Shown here: one piece after another, positions 8,236-63,940 of the stretch
Numbering within the stretch: position 1 is the stretch's first letter
Layout: every line of letters starts with the position of its first letter
Assembly (NCBI GenBank): GCA_032622095.1
Contig: CP136061.1
Location: 82,870,324 to 82,934,323 of the forward strand
DNA: 64,000 nt
DNA from: Siphonodentalium dalli
Lineage: Eukaryota; Mollusca; Scaphopoda; Gadilida; Siphonodentaliidae
Reading direction: 5' to 3'
Notes under the pieces: model-generated
The model's database searches: none
What the model was told of the DNA's origin: nothing
The model's input: the letters and a program-made list of their open reading frames with translations, nothing else
Position numbers and translations under genes: made by a program

Positions 8236-9859
8236 CAAAACCATAAGTCGAGTTTTTGATGATAAAAATCTCGTCTAGTGATACGAATATCGACATATAC
8301 CGTAGGCACGAGCAAGTGCGGGGGCAAACATGACGTTAACAGTGCCATGCAAAAACCGACAGCAGTAGACCCGACCTAGGACATAGAAATATGATAATTG
8401 GATTATATATTGAATAATGCTGATGTGTGTTGATATACTCAAAAGCGTACCAATCTGAGGGATATATTAATGTGAAGATGACAGGTTATTATTTTATTTT
8501 ATGGCACATTATTTCCTAGAGTTGGTGTGGCCATTTGGGCTGACGGGGTCATTGTCACAAGGCATCGATCACATTCGTAGCTTGCATTTAAAATTGATCA
8601 CAAATGTAGTCAGCTGTTCAATGGCGATCCTTGCGTCCAAAAACGATAGAATTTGAAAATCTAACTAAAATCTAAAAGCTGTGATTGATTTGACAAGCTG
8701 GCTACGAACTTGTTCATGTCTTGTGATAATGACTCCATCGGTGGCAATTAGTGTGTTCTCCCGACTTTGAATGTATCGGAAAGCTACCGTGGCGAGTGAA
8801 CAGACTCGATTATCATGTCAAGCAATTAATCCGAGAGCCTGCTGGGTTCTATTTGCACAATCGGGTACGAAAGGTTTGATGCCACAGATTTGTTCCACCC
8901 AGGAACGTCTAAAGAAATCCGATTTCTTAAGTTCCGCATTCCTGGCGTTTAGGGGCCAGTAACCCCACAAAAACCCCCCAAAAAATGACTTCTATTTGCA
9001 CTTTTTAGTACAATGCTGATTTTTATATCAGTAGTTCTCCCACAATCACTGACCAATAATACACAATTTCTGACACGAAATTTCCTGGCGTTTTCATTTC
9101 AGAAGGGGGTTTCTGATAGTACCCACAAAACCCCCAAAATTTACTGCCTGAAAACAAGCCTGAAAATTTACTTTTAATTTCACATACTGTCGAATACAAA
9201 GCCCAATTTTAAGGTGAATCCGGAATAAATTTATATAAATATACAAATCTACTAACCACAAACGTTCCCTAACTGTGAGTATGACCAAACATCCCAAATT
9301 TACGCGCGTTTCAGGGAGGAAAATTCGTTATTTTTGGGTAAAAAAAAATGCATAAAAACATGTAAGAAAGTTAAAATTTAAATTTTAGTCCGGGAACCAG
9401 GTCAGTCAAACGTGCACTGCCCCCAGGATTAAACTTCATTCATTTTTCGTAAGGATGTCTGCTGAAACTATTTCGACGTTAAAACGTGACAGTGTACATG
9501 TATTTTCCTGGCAATATGGCGGCCATTTCCGGTAGTATACCCCACTCACTACATACATTTACAACAAAAACCCATTGTTCTTGATTCCATTTTCATTAAC
9601 AAAAAGTAACAAAAAGAGCATTGTATGGTAACTTTCACCATATATAGGTGCCAGTTGCGCCACCATACACGATGTCCAATCCTAATCAGATAATAGTAAG
9701 TCATAACCCGAGTTTTCAAAAATGACGATGAAAATGGCAATCGGAAGTCAACAATTGAAGTGCTTTTTTAATTTCTAACTTTTTAAACTAAATCTTCATA
9801 TATCGAATAAATATAAAGCCAATAAGTAGTGGTTTATATGCCATCATACAAGTTTCCAA

Positions 9860-11310
9860 AGCCACCAGCTAGTTTCAGAATACATCAAATGAGTTTCCCA
9901 AACCACTTAACGAGTGTACCAAACAATATACTGAGTCACATACCAAGTATCCAAACCCAATCTATGAGTATCCCAATCCATACGTCTGGTGCCCCAAATT
10001 CAAATATTGTCCCGAGTAAAGCAGGATAAATAATCCACCCAATGAGTTTCACAAACTACTAAGTAGTGCCGCATACCATATGCAACTGGTTCCCAACCCA
10101 CATAGATGGTCCGCGAGCCATGTATCCGGTGTCCAATCTCACACAATGAGTGTCACAAGCCATCTAAACTACCCCGATTATTGTCGTAACCATGCAACGA
10201 TTGTTCCAAACCACAGCGCATGGTAGTGCCCCAAACAATTCAACTGACGTTCCAAACTACACAGGTTTTGTCCCAAACTACCAAAACAATGTGTGTCCCT
10301 AGCCAACCAACGAGTGATCCAAATCATGCAAGGAGTGGGTAAATCCATCCAATGATTGCCCAAAACTAGCAAATGAGTGTCCCAAACAATCCAGCGAGTG
10401 TTCGAAAGGAAAAGAGTGTCCCATATGCACCAAATCTAGTGTCCCGGACCATCTGAGACGGAGAGTCCTATGTCATACAACATATGTCCCAAACCACCAA
10501 CTTTCGTCTCAATCCATGCAACGGCCTAATCAGTGAACCAGTCGACAAATGAGTGTCTCATTCATTCCACCATTCGTGTGTCCCATATGCACATCTATTG
10601 TCCAAAACCATCCAATTTGTGTCTCAAACTTTCCAATGGGTGGCACAAACAATTAAGTAGTGACCCGTACCATATGCATCTGATTCCCGAACTGCACAGA
10701 TAGTTCTCCAACCCATGAAGCTGGTGTGCTAACCCACACAATGAGTATCACAAGCCATCCATGGAGTGTCTCAATTCACCTGATCAGTATCGCAACCATG
10801 CAACGATTATTCCAAACCAAAGTGCGTGGTACTGCCCCAACTAATGCAACTGGTGTTCCTAACCACATACCAAAAAATGAGCGTCCCTAACCATCGAACG
10901 AGTGATCCAAATCATACGAGTGGGTTGATCCATCCAACGATTGCCCCAAACACACAATGAGTGTCCCAAACCATCCAGCGAGTGTTCGAACGGAAAAGAG
11001 TGTCTAATATGCACCCAATACCTCACAACCAGAGCCCCAGAGTCCTATGTCATATAACAGGTGTCTCAAACCACAAAAAAGACGTCTCAATCCATGCAAT
11101 GGCCAAATCATTGAACAAATCGACAAATTAGTGTCCCATTCAACCACACGTGTGTCTCATATCCACGTCGAGTGTCTCAAACCATGTAATGGGTGTCACA
11201 AACCACACAGCGAGTGACCCAAACCATAAAACTAGTATCACAAACTAGCCATTGAGTTCCCAATCCATCCAAATGGTGTCACAAACCATCTACTAACTTT
11301 CATTTCAATA
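9860..11310 (+). repeat. About 21-bp minisatellite, forward arm
   Basis: Degenerate units of the form CCCAAACCATCCAACGAGTG are repeated for about 1.4 kb, with frequent variants (CACAAACCA, AATCCATGCAA). There are also higher-order copies: 10600-11000 resembles 10040-10440. Frames through it are meaningless. The same motif in reverse fills 12925-13590. Confidence 0.8.
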
Positions 11311-11475
11311 CATCCAAATATGCGAGTCCCCCGCAGGGAGTCTTGCATATTTTATGAGAATTCCGTGGCTCACATGGCCAAGGTAAGTATTGTTAGGTCA
11401 ATGTATTTTCTTATATATGCCATGCGCTCTATGGCACAGGATTTTCGCAAAATTTCAAGAAGCTACAGTCATTAA

Positions 11476-12919
11476 CTCTTTCGCTGCCAAACGCGCATAA
11501 ATGCGAACTTTGTAGACGCTGCCAATCGCGCATTTTTGCGAATTTGGTATGTAGTCTAATGTATGGGATATAACTCTATTCTTTCCGGCATGTTTGACAG
11601 TGTACAATGTATTTATCTGTAGTACTGTTGCGCGCGAACAATTTAAAGCGACAATGTCCCCAAGGTCATGCTATTTCTGACGTTATGGAGGTACAGTCAG
11701 AGCCGGAATATTGCGTCATTGTTATTAGCACGTGGTTGTCAGTCGAAAATGGCTGCTCGCAAAAGACTCAGGACTGAAGAAGTTATTGTTATTACCTCTA
11801 TACTCTAATGATCGAGGGGCGCCTGTGGCGCATAAGTTACTTATACCTATTATTTGTGTGGGCAGTAGCCTCTATTATAGGGGCGCCTGCGGCGCATAAG
11901 ATACTATGGTGGCGGGATGGGGTGGTGGGTGGGTAACTAACCTCTATACTCTAATGATCGAGTGGCGCCTGCGGCGCATAAGACACTTATACCTATTATT
12001 TATGTGGGCAGTAGCCTCTATAGGGGCGCCTGCGGCGCATACGATACTATGGGTGGCGGGATGGGGTGGTGGGTGGGTAACTAACCTCTATACTCTAATG
12101 ATCGAGGGGCGCCTGCGGCGCATAAGATACTATATACCTATTATTTATAATACACCTTTACTGGTTTTGAACAACCCTTGTCTATTGTGTCGTTTTCCAG
12201 TGGTGATAACAGGCAACTAAATTAATAATGCTGGTGAGTTGACCATGCGTATACGCCCGCGTGACCCATATAATTCACATAAATCATCGTAAAACCCAAT
12301 TTTCCTGAAATTCAAGATGGTCGTCAAGATCACGTGACTTATAAGTGGCGGAGCAGGGTAATATGTCCCCCTGCAGGTATATATACATATGGGTATGGTT
12401 ATATTATATATATCTATATTTGGAATTGTACCTATCAGGGAATATTCAAGCAACAAAAGCACGAACTCAACAAAGTGCGCCATTGTATCCCATTTTGCTA
12501 CAAATAGGTGGCAACTTGCATAAATCCAAGATGGACGCCAAGGTCACGTGACCTATTTTATGTCCAAAGTGGGTTCATATAGGTTACTCCCGTGTACCTT
12601 ACTGTTGGACATCGTATAATTGGGTTGAAAATTAGAAAACAAATAACACACCCATTCATACCCACACAAACTGTACATATACAGGCAAATAGCCACTAAT
12701 CCAAGATGGCCGCCAATGTCACGTGACGTTGGTGGGCGTGTCCACGGCGGTATTCGACAGGGTATACCTATGTCTATATGCATGTGAAGTTTCAACTAAT
12801 TATATTAGAAACTGCTTGAGATATAATGTATTACCCATATATACCTGAAATATATGGATATATGTACAGGATGCGTGGCACTGGGGGTACGTCTGTGGTG
12901 GCGGGTGGCAGCGAAAGGG
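11476..12919. mobile_element. Non-autonomous piggyBac-like element
   Basis: The ends read CTCTTTCGCTGCCA (11476) and TGGCAGCGAAAGGG (to 12919), inverted repeats with one mismatch. They are flanked on both sides by TTAA (11472-11475 and 12920-12923). A TTAA target with termini of the CCCTTT...GCC type is characteristic of piggyBac/looper transposons. The 1444-bp interior has no transposase. It holds a 146-bp tandem repeat, subterminal GCGCAT...GCGAA motifs and three spaced copies of AAGATGG plus CACGTGAC. The element sits within the minisatellite of foldback element I, so it inserted later. Confidence 0.75.
11800..12150. repeat. About 146-bp tandem repeat inside the piggyBac-like element
   Basis: CTCTATACTCTAATGATCGA recurs at about 11798, 11941 and 12086. 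Within each unit GGGGCGCCTGCGGCGCATA also occurs, itself partly palindromic (GCGCCTGCGGCGC). About 2.4 units are present. The 104-codon frame here is only the repeat read through. Confidence 0.8.
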
Positions 12920-12924
12920 TTAAA

Positions 12925-13590
12925 GATCATCAAATGAGTGTTTCAAACCATCCAATGGGTTTACACACCAAGAGACACTCGCTGGGTTGATTGAGATATT
13001 CGATGGATGATTTTGTATAATAGTTGGGACAATAATTCGATGGTGTGGGACATTCTGCATTGGGTGGTATTAGATACCAAGTGGATATTTTTGAAACTCT
13101 TGGTCCTGGTGGTTTGTGGCAATCATGTTGCATGGGACGGCCATTGGATGGGTATGAACACTCATTGATTGGTTTTATTGGACACGCATCGGATGGTGTG
13201 GTGTTCTCTATTGATGGTTTGAAATGCTCGTTGTGAGGTTTGGGACACAACGTGCATGATTTGGGACATTCTCTGGATGATATATGTTTTCAATCGTTGG
13301 ATGGTTTGGATTAATCATTAGGGCGTGTTTGGACACCGTTTGGATGGTTTGCGACACTAGTCGGGTCGATTGGGATGCGTATTGGGTGGTTCGGGACACT
13401 GGTTGGCAATTGGTGATGCCCTTTCTATGGACTGCGTTGGTTTGTTATACTATATTAATTAAGATGGTGGTTTGAGATCCCCGATGCGTGGACTTAAGCT
13501 CCTTAGATAACTTGGGACACTGGTTAAGCGGTTTGGGCACTCATTGGATATGTTTGGATACAAGTTTGGTGGCTTTTCACACTCATATCA
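12925..13590 (-). repeat. About 21-bp minisatellite, reverse arm
   Basis: Units such as TTGGGACACTCGTTGGATGG are the reverse complement of the 9860-11310 motif. The orientation switches near 12965, just right of the piggyBac-like insertion: 12925-12960 is still in the forward sense. Confidence 0.8.
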
Positions 13591-14985
13591 TGGCATATAG
13601 GACTATTGGCTATAAATTATATGAAAAGGTTTAGTTACAATTTAAATCAATTTCGATGCCATGGAAACAGTCTGGTGAACTTTAGCCAAACTTGCCCAAT
13701 GTCACTGCTGTCGGTCGCCATTTTGTCCCTATTTTCGATATTGACGCCCTCATTTCTGCTAAAATTCATATCTGCCATCTTATTGGTACCCAGTATTCAG
13801 TACACTGGTGAGTTCAATTCCCCTCTGTGCATTACAATAATAATTGATATTTCTTCGAAATTGTGTTTTTAATCTATTTTAATTTGATGGACACTGAAGG
13901 GCCAAATCCTCGTGATATGGCCCATTATTAGCAGATATCGATTTTGCATGGTATATTTTTTCTAAACAAATGGAAATTATCTGGTAAAATGTAGTGAAAT
14001 GAGCACAATTTGACCACTTCCGGTCACCATTTGTCCGCTATTTTGGATTTTGTAATGATAACAATAATAATTTATTAATAATTCCACAAGGAACGAAATA
14101 TCTAACAATAAAGCCATACACGTAAATAGGACTTTTTATCAAAGAACTCTATAAAATTTCCCCCAAAGCGGATTTTGAAAATGTTGTTCCCCCGATTCTG
14201 CCCGAAAAAAATGCCAAAAATTTCCATTGTTTTATCGCTTATATGAGAATATGAAATGCCAGGTGTTACTGCACCATTTATTCTGACCTAGAATCATACA
14301 GATCTTATTTACAGGGCATCTACAACGAAATTCCGATAAATTTGCCAGGTAAATTTGACAGCGTGTGAGCGTACGGGGTCCATAACATTTTAGTATTTCA
14401 CAATTTTCCACACCGTTTTTAATTAGGGTGATTTCGTTTTCGTTTTACCATTTGGTCTGTGAACAATGATGATAGCGGAGATAGTATTAAGAAAAAATAT
14501 CATCTGTGCGTGTGGCATGCAAATAAAACTATTTTTTCGGGTTTTGGTTGGGTACTTAATTCAAACCCACCATCTCCTTATATAACACAGATCCCCAGAA
14601 CAAAAATTACCCACCCCAACAATACTTACTCATATATAATTAAGTATTATTGGGGTAGGGTCAATATTTCTCCTGGTGACCTGTGCTTCTTAAATGAAAA
14701 CGCACGGAATTTCGTTTCTTAAACAGTGTTTTTATGACCAGCGATAGCAGGATAACTATTGAGGAAAAAATCAGCTTTTTGTGCAAATGAAAGATAATAT
14801 TCGGGTTTTTGGGGGTACTTTAAAAAAAAACAATTCTGAAATGAAAAAGCCGGGGAATTTTGTTTCAGAAATTGTGTATTATTGATCAGTGATGACCAGA
14901 GCACTATTAATATGAAAATCAGCTTTGTACTCGAAAGTGCAAATAGAAGTCATTTTTGGGGTTTTGTGGGTACTTAAAACCCCCC
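13591..14985. other. Interior of the right arm of foldback element I
   Basis: No gene is supported. From about 14690 to 14985 there are degenerate tandem relatives (period about 150 bp) of the outer arm sequence, with TTTCAGAA...GAAATTCC and AAACCCC blocks. The 88-codon frame near 13606 has no supporting features. Confidence 0.5.
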
Positions 14986-15549
14986 CCCCCCCTTCTGAAA
15001 TGAAAACTCCAGGAAATTTCGTTTCAGAAATTGTGTATTGTTGATCAGTAATTGGTGGAGCACTATTAATACAAAAAAGTGCAAATAGAAGTAATTTTGG
15101 GGTTTTTTTGTGGGGTTTCTGGGCCCTAAACGCCAGGAGTGCGGAACTTAAGAAATCCGATTTTTTGAACGTTCCTGGGGTGTAACAAATCTTGGGCATC
15201 AAACCTTTCGTACTCGATTGTGCAAATAAAACCCAGCAGGCTCCCTGACTAAATCATACAACGCTGATTTTTAGCAAGACAATTGGTATCTACCCCCATG
15301 CATTAGTACCGTTATGGGGAGGCGGTGAACGATTTACAATTTATCATCGGTGATAAGTGTGTAATTGACAAGCACTCATGGCCAACAAAATATTCATTGT
15401 CAATAAAAAACACAGTAATGCACAGTATACTATTCCTTGGCTATCTACAGCCTATGCAATTTACTACTAACTTTTTCTAGGTGATTCGAGTGCTAACAGT
15501 GTGTTGGCTAATGGCCAGCAATTGAATGGCGCTGTTAACGCCATGAATA

Positions 15550-16100
15550 AATCACTATGTATCTCTTTGATACAAAAAAATGTAGATTGTTTCCTGGGTA
15601 TGAAATCATGCGTATGAGTTGGAAATCCCTGTCCGGAAACGCTTAAATCAACTAATATTGATTTTATTTAAAATATTTTATTATAAAATGAGATGATAAA
15701 GTGGGACACGTTATTGATCTATTTTTAGAACAGACCATTCATAGGATACCATGTAGCGATAGAGATCATTAGGTGTTTATATAGTTATGTTCCGAACGTC
15801 AAATGTCCCAGATTGATTGTTTGTAATCTTGTATTACAAGTTATAAGCAATAATGAGTCTACTTAATTTTTATTTGTGACAAAATTACACAATCCAATTT
15901 CTAGTCTCTGCTAACATTAACCAATATTGTTCCTTAGCTAAACAACCACACGTTTTTAGACCAGAACATATTCAAAATATTATCAATATTAATCGATAGA
16001 TGCATTTCCCGACATGGGTCTTCGATTCATATTTAATATTTTATACCCATATAACTATATAACACATGTTTACAAAGAGATAGACCATCTTTAAGATACA
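15550..16100. mobile_element. MITE family A, copy 1
   Basis: Inverted ends share TCCGGAAACGCTT / CATTTCCCGACATGGGTCTT and the TTTACAAAGAGATAGA terminus. The centre holds CATTTGACGTTCGG read in reverse (GAACGTCAAATGTCCCAGA). The same family lies at 16185-16700, 19860-20300 and 60915-61505. The full length is about 500 bp, the arms are over 100 bp, and no coding frame is present. Confidence 0.7.
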
Positions 16101-16184
16101 AGTGTATATACACGAAAGGCAATCCTGAAGAAAACATAGATGGAATAGAACACAACTGCCTTATAATTTTGTGGTGACGATGTG

Positions 16185-16700
16185 TGCCTAAAGGTTGATT
16201 ATCTCTTTGTAAACATTTGTTATATAGTTACCGGGATACAAAAATATTAGATCTGAATCGAAGTCTCCTGTCCGGAAATGCTTCTATCGATTAATATTAA
16301 TTCTATTTCGAATATGTTCTGGTCTAAAAAGGTGTGGTCGTTTAACTAACGAACAACAGTGGTTACTGTTAACAGAGACCAGAATTTTTATTGTGTAATT
16401 TTATCACAAATAAACGTTAATTATACTCAGTATCGCTTATAACTATGGAATAAAACAATACAACCAATAAATCTGGACATTTGACGTTCGGTACGTAGCC
16501 ACAGGAACAACTTAATCCTCTATATCGCTATATGGTATCACCCGAATTGTCTGTTTTAAAAATATACATATAAACTGTCCCAATAAAATATTCGAAATAA
16601 AATCAATATTATATGATAGAATCCTTTCCGGACAGGGCTCTTCAGTTCATATTTATTATTTTATACCCACTCAAATTTGTTAATTAAAGAGATAATCCAT
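16185..16700. mobile_element. MITE family A, copy 2
   Basis: Starts near CCTAAAGGTTGATTATCTC and ends near AAAGAGATAATCC. The internal blocks GTCCGGAAATGCTTCTATCG and ACATTTGACGTTCGGTACG are shared with the other copies. The terminal inverted repeats extend over 100 bp (ATATTATAGTTACC-type block, then GAATCGAAG...CCGGAAATGC). Confidence 0.75.
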
Positions 16701-19859: not shown

Positions 19860-20300
19860 TTATAACTTTGTAAACATATATTTTATAGTTACCGGGGTAT
19901 AAATATTAGATCTGAATCGCAAAATCCTGTCCGGAAATGCTTCTATCGATTAACATTGATTTTATTTCGAATATGTTCTGGTCTAAAAAAGGTCTAGTTG
20001 TTTAGCTAACGAACACTAGTAGTTACTGTTAACAGAGACCTTAACTTTCTTTGCGTAATTTTGTCACAATTAAACATTAATAATACCCATTATCGCTTAT
20101 AACTATGGAATAAAACAATAGAACCAATCAATCTGGGACATTTGACGTTCGGTACGTAGCCATAGGAACAGCCTAATGCTCTCTATCGCTATATCGTATC
20201 ACCCGAATGGTCTGTTCTAAAAATAGACAAATACAATGTCCCAATTTCGTCTCATTTCATGATAAAATATTCGAAATAAATCCAATATTATTTGATAGAA
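19860..20300. mobile_element. MITE family A, copy 3 (right end missing)
   Basis: Contains TAGTTACCGGGGTATAAATA, GTCCGGAAATGCTTCTATCG and GACATTTGACGTTCGGTACG in the same order as copy 2. It stops near 20300, where the next repeat starts, without the mirrored terminus. Confidence 0.7.
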
Positions 20301-20311
20301 ATATACTTCAA

Positions 20312-21945: not shown

Positions 21946-23439
21946 GAGTATGGGCTCTCGTTACACGAGGTGTCACCAGAAAGGGGAATTTCAGCGACCA
22001 CCATATTTATGTAGCCCAACTATGCTAGTTGCAGGATCCGGTTGTCGCGGGATCAATATCTGGGGCAAAATGTGATTTTTTCACATTTTCCTCATGCTAC
22101 CCAACCTTATTTTTATGCATTTTTCGGGTCAGTTCATGTGATGTTCATCGGTCTAAACTTCTTAGTCTATGTTCAATTTAACCTTAAGAGTTATGTGAGT
22201 TGTATTGAAAAAGGTTAAAAATTGCCAGATAATCGTTTGACGTTGACGTTTGAGCTGTGACGTTTTCGTTAATCGTCAACGTATTTTCTTCCATTGATTC
22301 AGCTAAATGTGTCAGTTTCAACTCCGTTTATCATAAACCTATCGGAAATTGTCACAATATTTATGCCTTTTTGTGATCCGTGTCATATCTGCTAGTCGAT
22401 GGGTGTATTATTGTGGCCCTGTGGCGTACGTGTCCCGAATACATGGCAAAAACTTACCCCTCCCCCAAAACGATATGTAGTAACGCGTTTTGACAAATAG
22501 TCAGATTTCTTATATATTATCATATTTGTTTGCTTGCTAAAGCCATCTTAAACATATTGGTATGCATAGTAGGTCTGTTTTCATGATTGACTTGTTGCCA
22601 TTATTTTATTTTGAAGTATTTGCCTAAAATGGGTTCAGCATAATTTAAAGAGCGTTTCGTTTGTACCAAAAACGATAGATGGTGCCATTTGGCGCATTAT
22701 GGTCGCTACGATTTGAAATGTTTTATCAAAGATTGCTAAGTATGAATCTCAAAGATATATTTGAAAATTTGGATATGATCCATGGGTTCTTACTGGCTAC
22801 AGTTGTGACCAGAACATAACATTGAACCATATGTAGATTCTTGTATTTTGGATAAATGGCACCATTTTGCGTATTATTATATATGAATTCAAATTTCAAA
22901 AAAAAAAACACTAAGTGTAAAACTCAGGCGCAGTTTGTGAAAAAGTTATATGTGACCATACTGTTCTCACTGGTTACCATTGTGATACAAATTTAACATT
23001 GAACACTATAGAACATATTTTGTTATTTTACTCGAACGTTGATAGTAATATTACTATGCAGCCACCAAGTTCTACTATAAGAATAGAAGTCATTCACTGT
23101 AACAATCAGTGATCTAATAATATATTTCATGAAATATAGTCGATATAGTTATGCTTATAGATACAGTACTTGACAAAAGTATGTGCACAATACTGTGTAA
23201 TGCCATGCTTCATATGTTGAGTCAAAAGAAAACTGATCATCAAACTACAGTTTGACAAAGTGACTATTTTGTAATTTATTGTTTAGCGATACGTGTTATC
23301 AACAGACAAGTGATTGAAGCCAAATTGTAAATATTAACGAATTGTAATGCGACAAATATACTGGTAAGTTATAGTTCGTCATCATTTCTGCCAGGAGTCT
23401 GTCACACATACATCAGGAGAGTATGTGTTTTCCAAATGG

Positions 23440-24760
23440 GTTTTACTGTCTATTATATGATATCCCTTCATCCTTTATATGGTGTCCAATCACCTTTATA
23501 TGGCATTCATTCACCGTTATATGTTGTGCATATGTCTTTATATGCTATCCATTCATTTGTATATGGTGTCCGTACACATTTATATGGCATTCATTAACCT
23601 TTATATTGTGTGCAAATGTTATAGTATGTCCATTCATATTTACATCGTATCCATTCACATTCATGATGGTGAGTACTGTTCTTTATGTGGTATCCATTCA
23701 CCTTGATGTGGTGTCCATTCGCCTTTATGTGATGTCCATTCGCATTTCTATGGTGTTCATTCACCTTTATATTGTGGGCAGATGTCTTAAAATGATGTCC
23801 ATTCACCTTTATATGGTGGGCAATTGTCTTTATATGATGTTCATTCACATATATATGGTGTGCATTCACTTTTATATGGTGTCAATTTGCCTTTCTATGG
23901 TATTTATCCGCCTTCATATGTTGTCCATCCACCTTTATGGTGTGCAAATATGTCTATATGTTTACTATTCAACTTTATATGGTGTCTGTTCGCCTTTAAG
24001 TGGTGCCCATTCACCTTTATATGACGTGCCCATGTCTCTATATGATGTCAATTCGCATTTCTATGGTGTACATTCGCCTTTCAATGGTGTTCATTCACCT
24101 TTATACGCGTGCAGGTGTCATATGAAGTCAATTCGCGTTCCTATGGTGTCCATTGATTCGCCTCGATGGTGTCCTTTATATGATGCGCAAATATCGTTAT
24201 ATGATGTCCATTCACCTTTATGACTATGAGCACTGTTCGTTCTGTGATGGCATTGCACGGTGTCCATTTATCTTTATATTGTGTCAATTTACATTTATAT
24301 GGTGCCCATTTACCTTTATGTGGTCTCCGTTCATCTTCATGTTGTCTCCATTCATCTTTATGTTGTCTCCGTTCATCTTTATTTGGTGTCAATTTACCAC
24401 TATGTGGTGTTGTTTTACCTTGGTGTGGTGTTGTGTTTCCTTGATAGTGTGTCTATTTACATTTATATGGTGTCTGTTTACATGTATGTGATGTGTTTTA
24501 CCTTCACAACCACCTTCGTATTATGTCCTAGTGTCAATTCACATGTATGTGGTGTCCATTCACTTTCATATTTTATCCATTTACCTTTATTATGGTGTAT
24601 ATTTAACTCTATATGATGTGGGTTTTACCTTTATTTTGTGTCCATTGACCTGTATATGGTGTCCATTTACTTTTATCTGTAATGTAATTATATTCTTTAT
24701 ATGATGTACATACGACTTTATATGGTGTACAAACGACTTTATATGTCATGTGTAATGGTC
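23440..24760 (+). repeat. About 24-bp minisatellite, forward arm of foldback II
   Basis: Degenerate units of the form GTCCATTCACCTTTATATGG are repeated about 50 times. The unit length being near a multiple of three gives several long frames rich in Y, M, V and S (one of 266 codons from 23423). These are products of the repeat and should not be called genes. Confidence 0.85.
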
Positions 24761-24779
24761 TATATTATATGGTATATCA

Positions 24780-25220
24780 TGATGGTGAACGGACAACATA
24801 TAACGATATTTTCATGTCATATTAATACATCTCCACCATATAATACTACAATTGAAAATCATATACAGATGAATGGACACCATATACTGGTGGAACCACA
24901 TAATTTAAAGACGTATGCATATCACATGGAGAGCAGATGTCACAGTCTCAATGGTGAAAACACAACATAGAAAGGAAAATGGACAATATATCAAGATGAA
25001 TGCACACCACATAAGGAACTGTGCTCGTCTGACGGACACGCTATAAAGTCATAAATGGTTTGCACACCACATAAATGTGAATTGTCACCATATGAAGGTG
25101 ATTGGACACCATATACAGATAGAACGGCATCATATAAGGGATGACAACCACATAAGGTAGCTATGGTTTTCCATAGAAAACACAGAATCGCTGGATGCAT
25201 GTGTGATGGCGATGATGGAG
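24780..25220 (-). repeat. About 24-bp minisatellite, reverse arm of foldback II
   Basis: Units such as GAATGGACACCATATACTGG and AATGCACACCACATAAGGA are the reverse complement of the forward arm. The arm is shorter and more diverged than the forward one. Confidence 0.8.
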
Positions 25221-26692
25221 AATGGTTTGTAAATATATCTGTCACATTACAACTCGTTGTGATCTACAATTGGCTTCAAAAATAGTCAGCTGATAACAGG
25301 TGAATGAAACTTTAATTGACTATATATTCACATCGTTAAAAAAAACTATGGTCTTGTAATATTTTTTCGTATGACTCAACATGCATCAGCCTGTATGATA
25401 TCGGGGTCATTACAAATCATTCTACACATACTTTTGTCATGTACTGTATATAGAAGCATAACTATATCGACTATTTCACGAATTAGATTACTGATAGTTA
25501 CAGCGAGTCAGACGCGATTGTCTCGTCTTAATATAGTAGCACGTGGTGGCCGTTTTGTGATATTAATATCATAGTTCGAGTAATATAATGAAATATTTGC
25601 CGTAGTTCCAATGTTAAATTTTTATCGCAAATATAGTCAGTGGGAAATTGGGAATATTCTGACCACATCCGAATTTTCCCAAACTGCGCCTCAGTTTCAC
25701 ATATAGTAATTTTGAGAAATTTCAATTCATATATCATACGCAAAATGGCGCCATTTAATTATCCAAAATACAAAAATCTACATAGTGTTCAATGTTCATT
25801 TTTTATCACAACAGCGGCCAGTAAGAACCCACGGATCATATCCAAATTTTTCAAATATATCTTTGAGGTTCATACTTAGCAGTTTTTGCGACAACATTTC
25901 AACTCGCACCGTTTCATAATACACCAAATGATGCCATCTATCGTTTTTGATGAAAACTAAAAGCTCTTTAAGTTATGTTGACACAATTTTAGGCAAACAC
26001 TTTAAAATTAAATAATTGAAACAAGTCAATCCTGATAACAGACCTACTAGCCATACAAGTGTGTTTTAAGATGGCTTTTAGCAAGCAAAAAAATGTCATA
26101 TGATATAAGAAATCTGACTATTTGTCATACGCGTCACTAAGTATCGTTTTGGGGGAGGGGTCAGTTTTTGCCCTGTATTCGCGCTACCTACGCCACAGGT
26201 GCACAATAATACAACCACCCAATACCAGATATGCCACGGATCACAAAAAGGCATAAATATTGAGACAATATCAGACAAGTTTCTGATAAACGGAGTTGAA
26301 ACCGACACATTTAGCTTATTTCAGTACGTTCAAGATTAACGAAATACGTCACAGCTCAAACATCAAACGATTATCTGGCAACTTTTTTACCATTTTCAGT
26401 ACCACTCACATGACTCCCTCCCAAATCAAAGGAAGAAAAGGTTAAATTGAACATAGATTAACACGTTTAGATTGATGAACATCACATGAACTAACCCGAA
26501 AATGCATAAAATAAGGTTGGGTAGCATGAGGAAAATGTGAAAAAAAATATCATATTTTGCCCCTGCTATTGACCCCGCGACAACAGGATCCTGAAATTAG
26601 AATAGTTGGGGCTACATAAATATGGTTGTAGCTGAAATTCCCCTGTTTGGAGACATCTCGTAGACATCTCGTGTAATGAGAGCCCATAATCA

Positions 26693-26785
26693 TAAGTATA
26701 AATTGAGCAGAAATGTAGAAATGACAATAAGTTTGCACAACAGTCCCCCGAAGCACCATGCAATTTGCCCGAAAGTTCCACCAAT
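26693..26785 (+). repeat. Interspersed repeat B, copy 1, right end
   Basis: GTTTGCACAACAGTCCCCCG...CATGCAATTTGCCCGAAAGTTCC matches 30915-30965. This is the piece of repeat B left on the far side of foldback element II. Confidence 0.75.
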
Positions 26786-29463: not shown

Positions 29464-30970
29464 ATACTTTGAAGTATATTCTCAAGTCGCATGTGCCGGT
29501 TTAAATCCTGTTTCAATGGTGTCGTGTATTTATATTTCACGGACATGTACCGGTATATAACAGTTGAATGTATGTTCCATGACGCACTGTTACTGAAAGC
29601 ATACATATCGTTTGGACCTTATTGGTTAAGACATGGATGGCCTTCGTTATAGGTTATAATTTAGGAATACCAGTTACTAAATTATAATACCCTGACCCTG
29701 TATGTTGTAAAGAATATACTAATATTATACTATAATAGTATAATACTATGATAGTATGAATGCCATATTATCCTCAAAACACACATTGTGTGAGTCGAGC
29801 GTGTGTTTATATACAGCATAGAGAGTGAGCAATAAGAACAACACTCAACACCGAGTAAATGTGTTTAGGAGACTTATTCGCAGTGACTCATTCAACACCG
29901 AAATCTTGAAAGGTGGGGGTTAGCTAGCGCTATACTGATACGTTATAAACAATTTGGTGGAATTTCTAACCAAAGTTCACTTAATGCATGGGGTATATCT
30001 GGCGATTAGTGTTTTTGTTATCTCATACTATTTACATACTGTTTGTTTACATAACATGGGGTGCATATACATGTTTAAAAATAGCATTTAATACAACTAT
30101 TAGTTATTTAAGTCGGGCATTTAAGTCCTCATTTTGGAAGATTCGTCAGGACTCTATATATCAGCCATTTATTAACTCTGAAATATGTTTGTAAAAGTAA
30201 AACATAAAGTGATCCAGACAGACTGATGGACAAAACAAACCAAAGCACTGCCACTGATGGTTATTTAAACCAAATATCCGGCTACAACCTTTGACCAAAA
30301 AATCTTAACAAAATATGTACCATGCAAATTTCCATTGCGAGCTATTTCTGAATACTGAATAGAACCTGGTATAAAATTGTCTACTGTGAGGGTTTACGAG
30401 CAGATAATTTAACCCATTCACAATACAAACCGTTCATAACACCATACATACATGGCCTCAATAGCCAGAAGACGAGTGTGACTCGCCACACAGTAGTATT
30501 TCAACCAGGTTATACTCATGATTCATTCAATGAACTGGATATTGCATGTACACTTCTGCTACAGTGATTGGTACTTGATAGCACTATTGGTGCTAATGAA
30601 TAATGATATGATATTATATGCATATCGCGATTCAATTTAGTGTTTTAGACTTGGAAAAATTATTGAAATTTCAGCACGCAGTGACGAATGGTGACCTCGT
30701 ATAATGATAATTTTGTTTCTCATTTATAATAGCATCCTATTCCATGCCTAAGCTAAAATAAACACTCTGTAACAAATGAATTTGGTACCCGGAGAAGTTC
30801 CAAAAAAAGGGGCACACTATCAGTTCAGAATATGCATTGCATGTACGCAGCAAAACACATTTCAAATAACTTGAATTATAGGTATAAACGGACTGAAATG
30901 TAGAAATTACAGTAAGTTTGCACAACCTTCCCCGAAGCAGCATGCAATTTGCCCAAAAGTTCCACAAATA
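29464..30970 (+). repeat. Interspersed repeat B, copy 2 (uninterrupted)
   Basis: Colinear with 20312-21945 plus 26693-26785. It carries the empty site of foldback element II near 30871-30890 (TTGAATTATAGGTATAAACG). It ends where the duplicated segment with the TIR element begins. No coding frame is shared between the copies. Confidence 0.75.
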
Positions 30971-39660: not shown

Positions 39661-39747
39661 TGTTTCATAAATAGTCTACATTACGAGTTATACCTTCAGC
39701 ACTCGAGAACACGAGTACTATGTCTACATTGTATATACAATTATACA

Positions 39748-42200: not shown

Positions 42201-42280
42201 TCACTCTGCGCGAAGGTCGCAACTCTAAATTTAGCGATTTCAGTGACTTTGTGAGAGTGTTTGCTTTGCGTTGCTTACAG

Positions 42281-43604: not shown

Positions 43605-43787
43605 TCACAAAGAAGCAGTGTCGTATATTTTTCGATATACCCACTTCCGAAATCGACTCATTTTATGGACATTGGCTACAGGATGAACCCAAATTTCAAC
43701 GCAAGGTGATTGCAGGAACATTTGACTAAAGGAATCCGAAAAAATCGACGAGAAAATACTCAATCGTGTTGCTAAATGCCGATACAT
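43605..43787 (-). other. 60-codon frame in right palindrome arm
   Basis: Mirror copy of 38672-38854. The only residue change is near the C-terminus, KIYDTASL instead of KIYDSASL. Confidence 0.25.
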
Positions 43788-44087
43788 TGTGAAAAAATAT
43801 GTGCCAAAATTAGGACCCCGGGCTGTTTCTGCAGCCTATTTCTACCTCAATGCTTTAACGAAATATACACAATTGTATCGAATTCAACCCGGCAAATATC
43901 GAGGTTTTGAGCGAATGTAACTTCTACTATACCAACCGTTCCATTCTGTCAAAATTAATTGATAACCGTATTTTTCTGTTTTTCATGACCAGAAATTGCA
44001 ACATAAAACTAGAGATGCGCGGTTGTATCGTCGTAGAAGCGCGGTTGGCAACACAGATGCGCGTTTTCGAATGGTCGGTGTGACGCT

Positions 44088-46509: not shown

Positions 46510-48090
46510 GAGTTATGCAAAGATTAAAATCCAAGATGGCCGCGACAGCCATCGTTTTTTTGCCAAATGACCCAAAAAAGACTCCTTCCTATTTACATGT
46601 CATTGTTAACATCCTTCACAAATTTCATGATGATCCGACAAAAGATACGACATGTATCCCGTGTCAAAGGATTTAGTCGTGTAAAGAGTAAAATACAAGA
46701 TGGCTGCTGGCGACCAGGTTTCTTGGTTCAATTCAAAATGAATCTTTTCCCATCTAAATGTAATTGTTAACATCCATGACAAATCTCATGATGATTGTAC
46801 CAGAGATTCGACTTGTAGCCCTTGACAAAGAATTTAGTCATGCAAAGAGTATAATCCAAGATGGCTGCTGGCGTCCATGTTTTTGGCCGAACAACCCCAA
46901 AATTATTCATTTCCCATCTACATGTCAATGTCAACATTCAGGACAAATTTCATAAAGATCAGACCAAAGGTACGACCTGTAGCCCGCGCCAAAGGATTTA
47001 GTCATGCAAAGAGTAAAATCCAAGATGGCTGCTGGTGGCCATGTTTTTTGGTCAAACTACCCCAAAATGACTCGTTCACATCTACATGTCAATGTCAATA
47101 GCCATGACAAATATCATAATGATCTGACCAAATGTACAACCTAGAGCCTGTGCTGAAGGATTTAGTCAAGCAAAGAGTAAAATCCAAGATGTATTTTGGC
47201 CGAATGACCACAAAACAGCTCGTTCCCATCTACATGTCATTGTTAACACCAATGACAAATTTCATGAAGATCCGACCAAAGATACGACCTGTAGCCCGCG
47301 CCAGAGGATTTAGTCATGCAAAGAGTAAAATCCAAGATGGCTGCTGGCGGCCATGTTTTTTTTGCCGAACGACCCCAAAATGGCTCGTTCCCATTTGCCT
47401 GTCATTATTAACATCCATGACAAATTTCATGATAATCAGACGAACAGTATGACCTGTAGACCACGCGAATCGATTTAATTTTGAAATACAAGATGACTGC
47501 CAGCGGCCATGTTTTTTGGACGAATGACCCCAAAATGACTCGTTCCCATCTACATGTCAATGTCAACATTCAGGACAAATTTCATAATGATCTGACCAAA
47601 GGTACGACCTGTAGCCTGTGCCAAAGGATTTAGTCATGCAAAGAGTGAAATCCAAGATGGCTGCTGGCGGCCATGATTTTTGGCTGAATGACCCCAAAAG
47701 GATTCCTTCCAATCTACATGTTATTGTTAACATCCATGACAAATTTCATGAAGATCCTACCAAAGCTACGACCTGTAGCCTGCGCCAAAGGATTTAGTCA
47801 TGCAAAGAGTAAAATCAAAGATGGCTGCTGGCGGCCATGTTTTTTGGTGGAACGACCCCAAAATGACTCGTTAACATCCATGACAAATTTAATGATGATC
47901 AGACAAACAGTAAGACATGTAGACCGCGCCAATCGATTTAATTTTGAAATCCAAGATGGCTGTCAGCCGCCATGTTTTTTGGCCAATGACCCCAAAATGA
48001 CTTGTTCCCATCTACATGTCAATGTCAAAATTCATGACAAATTTTATAAAGATCAGACCAAAGGTACGACCTGTAGCCCGCGCCAAAGAA
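46510..48090 (+). repeat. About 160-bp satellite, about ten copies
   Basis: AAATCCAAGATGGCTGCTGG or a close variant recurs at about 46528, 46690, 46852, 47017, 47178, 47328, 47490, 47650, 47812 and 47956. Shared blocks include CCAAAATGACTCGTTCCCAT, CTACATGTCAATGTCAACAT and TACGACCTGTAGCCCGCGCC. One or two units are deleted internally. Several frames of 60-149 codons cross the units (…MTNFMKIRPK…GFSHAKSKIQDGCW…). They reflect the repeat and show no start or splice logic. Confidence 0.9.
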
Positions 48091-54745: not shown

Positions 54746-57609
54746 TAGTCCATGAGCCAGGTCCGAGAATGGTACCATTTTGGTGGGCAAATTCCATCAA
54801 CATTTTTCTCAAAGCTCATAATCTGAAGTTTATCGGAGTGCTGGGGCGCACTGTGGCAGTGTAGCTTTGTGTGCAAAATTTGTGTTTCCATGGCAACAGA
54901 GGGTGTTTTTGGCCAGTATAAAAAATATGCCTGTAATGGTCTACAACTTGAAAGTTTAAAGCAGTAACTCTATCTTTGCATTGATATGGGATGAAACCCT
55001 TGGTGTACTTTCTTTGGCATGGGGGATTTCATCGTTAGAGGTCAAGATCATACACAAAAGTCAAGGTCATTTACCAAAATATTAGCTTTTTTCATATCGC
55101 GTCATACATTTTCTACCCACAGGTTTTATATATTTGTTCTGAATACGTAATCGTTGCTCCTAAATAAGCTGTAGCGTATATGCTGGACGGAGAACTGTTA
55201 TTGTTGAAACTGACATGTCAGTCATGAGATATAGGCCTTTAAAATTGGTGACCATTTTCCAAAATGTGTCAAAAGCATGAAACTTCCAACATATGTTCCT
55301 TAGACATAATCTTTTCATTTTCAGATATAGACCCCATAAAGACATGGCCCTGCTTAGCAACGGTTGCTAGGCAACTACCCAAAGTATTACATGCTTATAT
55401 AAGGATGTATTACAGTATTTCATTCAACTTTAGTTGTTGTGAATTGCATAGTTGAGGTATATGTGTGACATAGGATGAATTACAAAGACTTTGTTTCTTA
55501 TCATAATGTCCATAACAACCGTTGATATGCAACTACCCAGACAGTAAAATGAATATTTGGCACTCTTCTCGATGGCATTTTGGGAATATTTGATGGTAGA
55601 TTAGTCTGAGATACATTTTACTTATGCTAACACATCACATGATATATGTTAAATAGAGACGGATAGTTTCTACGGTTGGAAGGTGTCATTGCGACCGTTT
55701 TTAAGAGACCAACCCATATTATTTTTAAATTTCAAAAGCATCGATGATAATAACGCAAGTTGTGGTTGATGAACAAAGTTGACTATGCTGTCTTATATAC
55801 ATGGAATACTAACATTTCTGACGCACCTTGATTAGTTGCTACTATTTTAACCACTGACATAATAGAATTATTGTGTTTTTCTATCACATATTTGGCATCA
55901 AAATCGGCAAAAATTCACTTTTCAGGTCTGGACCATTTTTTCAAGTAAAATGTAACTATAGTTGGTATCAAAGGTGCTTATAGTTTTTTTTTGTCATAAA
56001 TGTGTCACACTGATGTGTTTTGTAGACAAAATAACTGAAGATGGCTTACAAAATGGAAACCAGATTTGGTAACAAAAAGAAGTTGATTTTCCACATATAT
56101 CCTAACATTATTCTCTGCTGTTCGGAAAGTGTAGCAAATTGTGACTATGTTGGTTTTTAACCATGTTACTTTATCAACATACAACTAAAATTAATGTGCT
56201 TTTCTGTTTGTCCCAGTACCTTCTGAGATATGATATTTTCATTTTAAAAGATGCAGTGTGGAATTTTGCCAAAAACGTCTCATATTTTGAATGGAAATGC
56301 ACAGAAACGGAACTGAGCGGGACCATATTATTTGGCTACTGTCGCACATTAGCATAAACAACATTTGACTTAATACATGTTGTATGTCGACATGGTAGCC
56401 AGGGAGTGACTGTTGTGATGTGAGGTGAATAGTTATACAATGAGTGGCTATATGGTAATGGGTAGGGTCCACAGTGAGATGAATGGGAATATAAGGAGTG
56501 GTCATGTGCGAGGTGGATATGCATACATATACATGGAGTGGATATATGGTCATTGATGTGGTGTATGTTTAAAACAAGAGTAGCTACACAGTTGTCTGTG
56601 ATGGGGATTGATTTCATGACTAAGGCACTAGGGGTAGCGGATTATGAGACATTTAACAAAACAAATGACCAAAATATCACATTTTTCCCAATGACTTTGA
56701 CATTTGCAATTGACCTTGACCTTATATGTTTTAGTTGCCCAGTCAGTTTGATGGAACAATAATGAGTTAGCTATGAGTTAGCATAATTTCTTCAAACAAA
56801 GGTTCCTTGATTCTCAACAGCGGCATTTTCAAATTTTTCTTCAAATATATGGTGCCTTTGTCATGGAAACCTGAATTTACAACGACATTGGGCCCCACCC
56901 CACCTGGGCACGCCATCCAAAAAGTTTTCCCTATGACTAAGTAACATATATTTGTATAAATTTCATGCCTTAGTCAACAAATTCACAATTCAACCATTGA
57001 AGGACCCCATATGAGTAAATAACTCTAAAATATACACACAAGCACGATATCTTGGGGAAATAACTGATTTTGACCCATTTTGGAAAATGGCCACACAGTT
57101 TAGAGGCCTATATCTCATGACTGGCGTGTCTGTTGCAACAATATCACAGTTATCCGAGTAGCCTATTTGCTCTAGATTAATTTCGAGTAAAGATAACTTA
57201 TTCAAAACTGATATATAAACTCAGTGGATAGACAATGTATGACCCGATATGAAAAAAGCTAATATTTTGGTCAATGACCCTGACCTTTGTATATGACGTT
57301 GACATCTAGTGGTGAAATCTGCAGTGTCAAATGAAAGCCCAACAAGGGTAGCACCCAATATCAATGCCAAGATAGAGTTACGGCATTAAACTTTCTTGGT
57401 ATAGACCGTTATATGCATATTTTTTATACTGGCCAAAAACACCATCCGTTTCCATGGAAACACACATTTTCAATACTAAGCTACACTGCCCCAGTGTGCC
57501 CCAGCACTGACATAAACTTCAGATTATGAGCTTTGAGAAAACTTTTGGTAGAATTTGCCCACCAAATTGGTACCATTTTCCATTTTTGGGGAGCCTGGCT
57601 CATGGACTA
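54746..57609. mobile_element. Foldback element III
   Basis: The ends are TAGTCCATGAGCCAGG and its complement. The arms of about 600 bp mirror each other: CATAATCTGAAGTTTAT, GTGTTTCCATGGCAAC, TTTTTGGCCAGTATAAAAAATATG, AATATTAGCTTTTTTCATAT and ATGAGATATAGGCCT all have reversed partners. The centre has unique sequence shared with foldback element IV (CTTTTCAGGTCTGGACCATT, 55919) and a short minisatellite. No transposase is seen. Confidence 0.75.
56390..56570. repeat. Minisatellite at the centre of foldback III
   Basis: Degenerate units of about 30 bp containing GGAGTG(G/A)(T/C)(C/T)A.ATGGT.AT, for example ATGGAGTGGATATATGGTCA. A related motif fills the centre of foldback element IV. Confidence 0.6.
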
Positions 57610-58126: not shown

Positions 58127-58147
58127 TCGTATCGTTCTGTGTATACC

Positions 58148-60914: not shown

Positions 60915-61505
60915 GATGGTCTATCTATATGTAAACATGATTTATATAGTTACCTGGGTATAAATATGGTCTATCTCTTTGTAAACATGATTTATATAGT
61001 TACCGGGGTATAACGATGGTATATCTCTTTGTAAACACGTGGTATATACCCACCGGGGTATAAAATATTAGATATGAATCGAAGACCCCTGTCCGGAAAT
61101 GCTTCTATCGTTTAATATTGATAATATTTCGAATATTTTCTGGTCTAGACAAGACATTTTATTGTGTAATTTTGTCACAAATAAGTGTTAATTAGACTCA
61201 TTGCCACTTATAACTATGTAATAACAGAATAGATACAATCAGTCTGGGACATTTGACGTTCGGAGCATAGCTATGGGAACATCCTAATTATCTATATCGC
61301 TATATGGTATCGCATGAATGGTCTCTTCTAAAACTAGATCAATTCAGTGTCCCACTTTATCATCTCATTTTATAATAAAATCATCGAAATCAAATCAATA
61401 TTAATTGACAGAAACATTTCCGGGCCGGGATTTCCAACGCATACGCATTATTTCACACCCAGGAAACTATCTAATATTTGTTATTTAAAGAGATAATCTT
61501 TAGGA
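60915..61505. mobile_element. MITE family A, copy 4, with triplicated left end
   Basis: The left terminus is repeated three times with a 50-bp period (ATGGTCTATCTATATGTAAA at 60916, ATGGTCTATCTCTTTGTAAA at 60966, ATGGTATATCTCTTTGTAAA at 61016). It continues into CTGTCCGGAAATGCTTCTAT and ACATTTGACGTTCGGAGC and ends AAAGAGATAATCTTTAGG. Confidence 0.75.
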
Positions 61506-61599
61506 TTTGATTTACTAAAAAGTCATAAAGCTTTAGTTTGTTGCATGTGGTATACAAGATCTTCAAATCGTTATGTTGGGATTAGTGGTACCATGACAC

Positions 61600-63940
61600 C
61601 CCTTGGGACTTAACTTCACCCCACTCATTTTGTTCCTTATTAGCAAATATTCACTTTTCAGGTTTGGACCATTTTTTTTCAAGTAAAATGTAACTATCTT
61701 TGGTATGAAAGGTGCTTATTGTTTTGGTCTATCTTAAATGTGTCACTCTACGGTGTTTATAGCCCAAATAGCTTCCAAAATGGCAACCAAATTTGGTAAA
61801 AATTCGATTTTGTTTACATATATCCCGAATATTATTCTCTGCATTTTCCGAAAAGGCAGCACTTGATTATTATACATGTTAGTTAATTAACTGACAACTG
61901 CATGTTCTATTCTGGTTGCTGTATGGAATTTTGCCGAGAACTTCTTTTGTGATTCTGACCATATTATTGAAAGGAAATGGGCAGAACTTACAAGGAGTGA
62001 CTACATGGTCATAGGTCATGTGTGGAAGTATACCCAGTGTGCCTGCATTGTGACTCATGGCTGTATGGTCATTTGCGGTGTGTACGGGTGTAACCAAGTA
62101 TGGTTGTATGGTCAAGTGTACGTGTATATAGTGCCACTCCATATATACAGAAACACCACAAAAATGACAATACAGTCACCCACTTTATACCCGTATACCT
62201 GACCCACGACCAAACAACCATACTTGGTTATGCCCGTACACACCACAAATGACCATACAGCCATAAGTCACTATGCAGGCACACCGGGTATACTCCTACA
62301 CATGATCAATGACCATATAGTCACCCATGTGCACCTATTCTCCACTCACATGGCCAAATAGTCATTCAAGATATGCATAAACACCACAACAATTACCATA
62401 TATTCACATCAGGTATACACATGCACCACACCAATGGCCATCCAACCTTTCCGGATATACCAATACCCACACATACGACCACTCATACCTCACATACTTG
62501 CATATACACCTCACACATGACAATTCAGCAATTGACTGTATATTAATACACGCTATCCACGATCACACAGCTACTCCATATACACACCAATGATAATACA
62601 TCCACGGCATATATCGATATACATCCCACCATTTACCACAATGGCACTCTCTATATACCCACACGCTCGCCAATGACCATCCAGCTTACTCCAGGTATGC
62701 ATATACACTTCAATCATGACCGTACAGTCGTTCCATGTACACATATACACATTATTCATAAACATAAAATCACTCCCTATTTATCCACACACCCCATCCA
62801 TGATCATACATACAGTACATGTATACATAAACACACACATGTCACAATACAATCACACACGGTACACCTGTACATCCCACCCACGACCTTACGGTCACCC
62901 CATATATTCACAAACAACACACAGATGACCATGCAGTTACTCTCGTTATATCCATTCACCACATCAATGTCCATACAGCCACATCGGTTACACCCGTACT
63001 GGGTACACACAACCATACACCATACAGTCAATACATGTATACCGATTCACCCCACACGTGACAATACAGCCACTCCTTGTATATATATACATTTCACCAT
63101 GCACACCCCACCCTATTCACATCACCAATGAATACACAGTGACTCCATGGCTGCCTTCTTGGCATTCACCTTGTATCCAGTTGATAATGTTTTATCCTAA
63201 TTAGCCAGGATAGCCACATATTAGGGTTCATCTCAGTTCTCTCTTAAAGTTCTGCCCATTTCCTTTCAATAAAATGACCAGAATCACACACGAGGGTCTC
63301 GGAAAAAATCCATACTGGGACAACCAAAATAGAATATATAGTTGGCAGTTTATTAACTAGCATGTATAAGAACCAAGTGAGTCATAAGTTGCAACCTTTT
63401 CGGAAAGCGCAGAGAATACTATTCTGGATATATGTACAAATTTTGGATGCCATCTTGAGCAATTTGGTCTATAAACACCGTAGTATGATACATTTAAGAT
63501 ATACCAAAACAATAAACGCCTTTCATGCCAATGATGGTTACATTTTACTTGAAAACATTGTCCAAACCTGAAAAGTGATTTTTTGCTGATATTTATGACA
63601 AGTTTGTGAGGGAAAAATCAAATATTCCTGGTAATGTCAGTGGTGACAATAGTAATAATTAGCCATGGTGCATCAGACATGTTAGTATTCAATGTATAGA
63701 ACGCAGAATAGTTAATATAATTCATCAACCGCAACTTATAAGCGATTGCAGGACACGCTTAGGCAAAGTCTACAATGTTCCATATTTTGGCGGCAATTCT
63801 GGCAGTCATTTTGAGCCAAAGTAACAATTTTGGTTCCATTGAGTTAGAATATGGATAGGTAATAATATGCCTCACTTATATTACAAAGTTCTGTTCATTT
63901 CTTGTTGAAATATGGCTAGAATCACAATTTTGAGGTATCG
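61600..63940. mobile_element. Foldback element IV, same family as III
   Basis: The left arm (about 61640-61990) has CTTTTCAGGTTTGGACCATT, AGTAAAATGTAACTATC and TATTATTCTCTGCATTTTCC. The right arm (about 63230-63760) carries the same blocks reversed (GTCCAAACCTGAAAAGTGA at 63559). The right arm also extends into sequence matching 55740-55920 of element III. The true right end may lie past the window. No coding capacity is seen. Confidence 0.7.
61985..63150. repeat. About 35-bp minisatellite in foldback IV, reversing direction
   Basis: Units such as CACACCAATGACCATACAGCC...GTATAC run forward from about 62140. Their complement (GTATGGTCAAGTGTACGTGT) runs from 61985 to 62135, so orientation flips near 62140, close to the left arm and not at the centre. 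Frames of up to 152 codons rich in H, T, I and P come from the repeat. Confidence 0.8.

Follow-up and report, generated by a model that had tools for sequence, protein, structure and literature searches.

Foldback elements with short tandem repeats in their arms are exemplified by FB of Drosophila and TU of sea urchin, and foldback transposons in general have been regarded as a structural oddity of unclear origin. Galileo, a member of the P superfamily in Drosophila, is described as having long arms that in some copies hold tandem repeats (~140 or 210 bp) varying separately in each arm, and one of its copies has drawn 69 bp of the end of the open reading frame into the arm (PMC4168063, PMC3573991, PMC3688188). 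In electrophoretic mobility shift assays, the DNA-binding domain of the Galileo transposase is reported to bind secondary sites within the arm repeats (PMC3688188). Tetris / DAIBAM of Drosophila virilis is likewise a foldback with arm tandem repeats, of ~220 bp, and without apparent coding capacity, for which the cited account gives duplications of 8–10 bp and no transposase-encoding partner (PMC4079207). As for Academ transposons, target duplications are given as 3 or 4 bp in AcademX and 9 or 10 bp in AcademH, a distinction linked to the presence of a nuclease or a helicase, respectively (PMC10045372), and the superfamily is reported to have expanded in bivalves and to be scarce among the remaining molluscs (PMC10294476). 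Among the papers listed by a keyword search of the literature there is no foldback Academ, a weak absence since ‘academ’ also matches ordinary words. To our knowledge, no foldback Academ with arm minisatellites has been described. The present analysis concerns four foldback elements, designated I–IV, that lie in a stretch of 64,000 nucleotides of genomic DNA (the window; C1:82870324-82934323) from the scaphopod mollusc Siphonodentalium dalli.

Elements I–IV are probably foldback forms of non-autonomous cut-and-paste DNA transposons that belong to a single superfamily, the likeliest being Academ in its nuclease-bearing branch (AcademX). With Galileo they share long arms with tandem repeats that vary separately per arm; the ~140- or 210-bp repeats of Galileo are comparable with a 154-bp arm repeat of family I and unlike the 21- or 42-bp units of the minisatellites, and the 7–8 bp duplications and the P-type transposase with a THAP domain reported for Galileo contrast with a duplication of 3 bp here. 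The likeness to Tetris / DAIBAM lies in the foldback build, the arm tandem repeats and the lack of coding capacity, its longer duplications setting it apart. The likeness to AcademX lies in the short duplication reported for that group, and a long single frame is found here. Since coding relatives, gene-bearing palindromes and coding-free minisatellite palindromes occur together in one genome, the steps leading from an ordinary to a foldback transposon can be ordered.

The window is repeat-rich and gave no Rfam match at gathering scores. Self-comparison on both strands, on which the arm coordinates are based, bore out the inverted arms that the initial annotation had placed in all four elements: 8826-9140 versus 15252-14952 in I (81%), 21946-23530 versus 26691-25061 in II (75%), 54746-55277 versus 57609-57065 in III (81%) and 61638-61989 versus 63591-63247 in IV (78%). 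Element edges were refined from the ends of other copies, which led to corrected limits for I and IV, the latter running beyond the window (Table 1). The genome searched comprises 2.23 Gb in nine contigs (C1–C9), and the loci compared with the window are labelled L001, L002 and so on. Terminal sequences, allowing at most two mismatches for family I and three for families II, III and IV, matched at 480 places for I (238 forward and 242 reverse), 216 for II (96 and 120), 236 for the left end of III (118 and 118) and 1001 for IV (490 and 511), with none for the reversed control of any family. The places listed are the best 100 per search and hence biased to well-kept copies; among them, neighbouring ends at most 12 kb apart in forward-then-reverse order, counted by eye, form 15 pairs in family I and 30 in family IV, with no reverse-then-forward neighbours in either. 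Nine of these 30 family IV pairs span 4895-4958 bp and eight span 5184-5284 bp, the other 13 being scattered from 0.36 to 9.6 kb. The test proposed with the initial annotation, a genome-wide search with the arms, has thus yielded dispersed copies with defined ends and target duplications, and the four structures are genuine mobile elements.

The duplications are short. Flanks of 3 bp were equal in 24 of 28 rows compared with 56 of 756 mismatched pairings, and agreement over 4 bp was seen in none of the 28. After four same-flank rows had been dropped (20/24) and L060–L063 and window element IV added, a 3-bp target duplication was present in 24 of 29 independent insertions, namely 11/13 in family I, 4/5 in II, 2/3 in III, 4/5 in IV and 3/3 in other related elements. 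With the element start set at TAG, the duplications of L061, L062 and L063 are TAT, ATA and TAG; that of L060, read by eye, is TAT, and the flanks of window IV are unequal. Not counted were loci with the flanks of L002 [L006, L009, L012 (damaged left end), L052/53, L054/55 and L054/58] or of L015 (L056/57), those with both ends undefined (L018, L019 and L021) and those with an undefined right end (L022, L023, L024 and L027). An early guess of an 8–9 bp duplication for family II was superseded by the value of 3 bp. A match to the joined flanks was found for 5 of 20 insertions, four of which were aligned (L016, the fifth, lies outside the alignment): the empty sites of L002 (family I, TAG) and L014 (family II, ATT) are inside the tandem repeat at 46511-48088, that of L001 (family I, ATA) is in L028, and window II has its own within the window (Table 1). 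One family I insertion in the ~164-bp repeat has been copied, with the same flanks, to at least six loci (L002, L006, L009, L012, L052/53 and L054).

The ends, too, bear a common signature. The tip reads TAG..., and four of the six sets compared have GGAGCC or GAGAGCC within a few bases of it, with variants in III and II. In family I, one end reads TA[AG]TCCGAGAGCC (or TAATCAGAGAGCC) and the other TA[AG]TCAGGGAGCC; families IV, III and II end in TAGTC[AG]GGGAGCC, TAGTCCATGAGCC and TAGTATGGGCTC, respectively. Among the related loci, L028 ends in TAGTTCGGGAGCC (palindrome ends TAGTTCGG), a 6.8-kb element made up of L029 and L031 ends in TAGTCCGAGAGCC, and the frame of L060 is flanked by TAGACATTGGGCTG and TAGACGTGGGCTG. 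What had been described as several families of this design are indeed several families, better read as members of one superfamily. Relatedness of the families by arm sequence was considered and abandoned, the agreement with the 6.8-kb element being limited to the tips.

That 6.8-kb element (on C5) has 738-bp terminal repeats (90% alike), an uninterrupted stop-to-stop frame of 1564 codons and the duplication ATA/ATA. A second long frame, of 1369 codons and likewise uninterrupted, is that of L060, its ends being read by eye as TAGAC with TAT on both sides. L001, of family I, holds a 204-codon fragment without Pfam match; a genome search with this fragment gave 170 matches from the 150 scored of 1777 first-look candidates, several of them inside family I elements and many forming divergent pairs 1–2 kb apart. 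In two palindromes, L030 (5.9 kb, family I ends, duplication TAT) and L028 (duplication GTA), both arms carry truncated, divergent copies of the gene's 3′ portion. Those of L030 begin at residues 893 and 908 of a 1344-codon reference frame, 8 bases apart near the axis, which by our reading of the alignment falls within a small inverted repeat of the gene; those of L028 also point away from each other, around a less symmetrical centre. Such back-to-back 3′ parts suggest that both palindromes originated by inverted duplication, probably of a part-element with the 3′ end of the gene. The minisatellite-bearing forms would later have lost, or would never have had, coding sequence. The absence of a transposase from the window, stated initially, is borne out as far as tested, a tblastn search of the window with the 1344-codon reference frame being empty. 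An 11.8-kb family I copy (L010+L011) was rejected as autonomous element because its long frames, on reading, look like those of a long interspersed nuclear element (LINE). L001 also contains, at its positions 3270-4570, a nested element with part of a FLYWCH gene and the ends TTCTCACTTGTCCGGCA. A FLYWCH- or MULE-type source of mobility was likewise rejected: this segment, bounded by inverted ends of its own and unmatched in the other loci compared, is nested.

From these structures a course of events can be proposed. A transposase of the kind encoded by the coding relatives would move the non-coding copies in trans. A palindrome would start, to judge from L030 and L028, when the portion of a copy with one end and the 3′ region of the gene undergoes inverted duplication by fold-back template switching; it would then spread as a unit, and the arrays in its two arms would later change length separately. 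A more far-reaching scheme seems unlikely: the whole clan of palindromes would derive from a nuclease-bearing transposon whose 3′ half was duplicated in inverted orientation, unrelated 21- or 42-bp arrays would have evolved in the arms at least three times because helically phased repeats dock the two ends together, and a structure-specific nuclease encoded by the element would tolerate or process the hairpins formed by such palindromes.

The periods of the minisatellite arrays were determined by lag autocorrelation, with the top lag compared to the highest value from 200 mononucleotide shuffles of that stretch, and their orientation from the scores of each unit along either strand of the elements. 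For the unit length, first put at 21–35 bp, the corrected values are 21 bp (I and II) and 42 bp (IV). The peak at lag 21 is 0.407 and 0.398 in the arrays of I and 0.565 and 0.451 in those of II, and the peak at lag 42 is 0.438 in the long array of IV; in all five stretches the top lag exceeds the best shuffle. In IV, the left array is short, at 161 bp, and its top lag stays within its shuffles; the 311-bp centre of III shows no elevation at lag 21 or 42, its strongest lag being 94, barely above the shuffles (0.396 versus a shuffle maximum of 0.384). The claim that each element has opposed arrays flipping at the centre is correct for I, II and IV, which, like L006, L015 and L020, show a clean strand flip, and incorrect for III, which matches the unit of IV on one strand only, around 56396-56640, and so has a short one-sided array, as does L024. 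Compared by eye, I, II and IV have dissimilar units. Arrays within an element are unequal in length (1.5 versus 0.67 kb in I, 1.3 versus 0.37 kb in II), which may be due to slippage.

Neighbouring units are an exact multiple of 21 bp apart in 113 of the 158 intervals of II (five arrays) and in 51 of 108 in I (four arrays), and a multiple of 42 bp apart in 21 of 40 intervals in IV (two arrays), the arms having 0.25–0.41 gap openings per substitution. This suggests that in the arrays of II register is better conserved than sequence; the signal in I and IV is weak and could stem from the choice of anchor or from homogenisation of the arrays. A length of 21 or 42 bp corresponds to two or four turns of DNA, whence the hypothesis, framed by analogy with the secondary sites of Galileo, that the arrays may offer, or may once have offered, phased sites to which the transposase or an architectural protein binds. 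With three dissimilar units of common 21/42-bp period, the arrays allow a test between passive repeats and phased binding sites.

Evidence on whether finished palindromes are copied or made afresh comes from their centres. The ~139-bp centre of window I recurs at 91-94% in L002, L003, L006, L009, L010, L012 and L013, which, given that L002, L006, L009 and L012 share flanks, represent four independent family I insertions besides that of the window; no copy of it is present in L001, L004, L005, L007, L008 or L030, which are gene-bearing or short. The centre of II aligns at 79-85% in the four long copies (L014–L017) and is in neither short copy (L018 and L019). Since independent family I insertions have this 0.14-kb centre in common, finished palindromes spread by transposition. 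In family IV, the arms are 93.6-97.7% alike over 1.0–2.0 kb in L020, L062 and L063, and 96% alike over the outer 0.56 kb in L061, about as alike as different copies are to one another.

The initial annotation had suggested that the genome repeatedly makes or amplifies such foldbacks, perhaps by hairpin replication slippage; in this view they would arise at many sites, with the arrays as by-products. The unequal lengths of the two arrays in I and in II are in line with this, as is the axis of L030, whose position in a small inverted repeat of the gene indicates that fold-back events do occur; moreover, outer arms without their tips are slightly nearer to their own mate than to other copies, and 13 of the 30 family IV pairs (best 100 ends) fall outside the two main length classes. 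Slippage is nevertheless distinctly improbable as the general source: the other 17 pairs belong to two narrow length classes, one tip of each of two types is found in all 14 family I elements compared, near-identical ends with 3-bp duplications occur at dispersed sites, and the same centre in independent insertions speaks against it for both I and II. Movement by the transposase of a superfamily already known for foldbacks, P/Galileo or MULE, is a different proposal. L001 does have a FLYWCH domain inside it, a domain that occurs in some MULEs. The arms of Galileo contain tandem repeats and recruit internal sequence, according to the accounts cited (PMC4168063, PMC3573991, PMC3688188). The duplication of 7–8 bp given for Galileo as opposed to 3 bp here, the lack of a THAP match by Pfam in the long frames and the lack in them of any MULE domain, that FLYWCH of L001 apart, make this proposal very improbable indeed.

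It may also be that the elements are what is proposed here in all but name, belonging to PIF/Harbinger, to Zator or to an undescribed superfamily with duplications of ~3 bp. The source consulted for AcademX gives 0–4 bp for PHIS and 3 bp for Zator (PMC10045372), and the long frames have neither a Pfam match above the cut-off nor a convincing solved relative: one found nothing at E 10 among solved structures, and the other found two entries at E 1.7. More broadly, Pfam reported no THAP or named transposase domain among the frames scanned, N-terminal parts included, its matches above the cut-off being to FLYWCH (in L001) and to zf-RVT (in a frame adjacent to a copy of family III), and NCBIfam gave a single chance-level match on the C-termini. 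Nor did Pfam report the PIF/Harbinger transposase domain in the frames, though the duplication length fits. The C-termini, as compared in alignment A1 (L034, L041 and L042 excluded for stops; L043, L001, L004, L028 and L030 not in it), have the motif order EADT ... DTD ... GCD, which, by our reading, would be in keeping with a nuclease of FEN1/XPG type, characteristic of AcademX, and would speak against these other superfamilies. The duplication of 3 bp in 24 of 29 insertions lies within the range of 3 or 4 bp given for AcademX. Membership of another superfamily is a possibility of some weight, if not a likely one, and AcademX seems likely to be the best name.

Several points weigh against assigning I–IV to a single superfamily and to Academ. 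Academ identity is not proven: a C-terminus profile retrieved three Exonuclease 1 sequences at E 0.62-0.65, behind plain chance hits, and a second such profile retrieved no Exonuclease 1. When compared by hhalign with an EXO1-like exon of the same genome, the GCD motif was in register at E 0.031 but at 1.6% probability, and the acidic exon of another XPG-family gene was not aligned. PF00867 matches none of these frames. Pfam DUF6589 is weak in one long frame (E 0.00055, below the cut-off) and absent from the report for the other, and DUF7731 is weak in five of nine aligned C-termini (best E 0.0011), with E 0.18 in L060. Family II has just TAGT and a GGGCTC in common with the signature, and 5 of 29 insertions are without equal 3-bp flanks. 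The terminal repeat of the 6.8-kb element is unmatched in the window and in L001, L014, L020, L028, L030 and L060, so that no coding partner was found for any window family. Finally, the outer arms of family I, minus the first 9 bp, are slightly nearer to their own mate than to other copies, with mean identities over 28 ends of 0.942 to the own mate (0.949 without same-flank copies), 0.937 to others of the same type and 0.930 to others of the opposite type. The best other end is of the same type for 17 of 28 ends (10 of 22 without same-flank copies), and these trimmed arms do not cluster by end type. As the outer arms have no end-type signal beyond the tips, exchange between arms is possible and likely occurs as well. 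An earlier count, in which 27 of 28 family I ends were nearer to another copy's end than to their own mate, was discarded, since it sets the closest of 26 ends against a single one and takes in the tips.

The features of the window, together with three places elsewhere in the genome, are listed in Table 1.

Table 1. Coordinates of the foldback elements, their parts and associated repeats (window positions unless a contig is given)
Feature	Position	Strand	Remarks
Element I (family I)	8827..15251		Ends TAATCCGAGAGCC / TAGTCAGGGAGCC; target duplication AAT at 8824-8826 and 15252-15254
Left arm of I, outer part	8827..9140	+	By self-comparison; dispersed copies elsewhere
21-bp array of I, inward from left arm	9840..11330	+	Lag autocorrelation, strand scoring
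Centre of I between arrays	11335..11473		Common to independently inserted L002, L003, L010 and L013
21-bp array of I, opposed	12930..13600	-	Lag autocorrelation, strand scoring
Right arm of I	14687..15251	-	Holds ~150-bp direct repeats; matching arm repeat of ~154 bp in other copies
Element II (family II)	21946..26691		Target duplication ATA at 21943-21945 and 26692-26694
21-bp array of II	23447..24745	+	Unit TTATATGGTGTCCATTCACCT; lag autocorrelation, strand scoring
21-bp array of II, opposed	24770..25140	-	Lag autocorrelation, strand scoring
Empty site of window II	30668..30969	+	Uninterrupted paralog; triplet ATA
~164-bp tandem repeat	46511..48088		Relatives elsewhere are targets of L002 (family I) and L014 (family II); empty site
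Element III	54746..57609		Ends TAGTCCATGAGCCAGG; flanks TTG / TTA, duplication inexact
Inner part of III	55757..56640	+	Related to arms and array of IV
Element IV copy	61583..64000 in window		Left end damaged near 61583; right end ~64409, beyond window (C1:82934732)
42-bp array of IV, short left part	61990..62130	+	Orientation only; too short for period signal
42-bp array of IV, opposed	62135..63140	-	Lag autocorrelation, strand scoring
Tandem triple ends of families I and III	C5:124122504-124133580; C9:168284163-168294303; C4:49754008-49767367

The density of elements in the window is worth recording: four members of the clan in 64 kb are far above the expectation from the terminal counts if copies were evenly spread. 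The counts overlook decayed copies, window IV among them, and the excess may reflect clustering, under-counting or both. Elsewhere in the genome, ends of families I and III are repeated three times in tandem at a near-constant spacing of 3355 bp, ~4.9 kb and ~6.67 kb (Table 1). Three family III copies (L022, L023 and L024) have a further ~1.8 kb in common on the right-hand side of the inner right end and differ in their left flanks, so that a longer unit seems to be mobile.

Other repeats interrupt or neighbour the four elements. Between the two arrays of I, at 11474-12926, lies an unrelated nested insertion with ends resembling TTAA plus CTCTTTCGCTGCC / GGCAGCGAAAGGG, which we take to be piggyBac-like. 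At 38376-44083 there is a 5.7-kb element whose inverted arms, of 1.4 kb each, are 98% alike, far more so than those of I–IV; it has the ends TCACACCGACCATTCG, CGC on both sides and, inside, three copies of a 0.53-kb tandem repeat. Another repeat family, at 15560-16697, 19860-20304 and 61011-61498, consists of a 1.1-kb palindrome (15595-16669) and of single arms elsewhere in the window.

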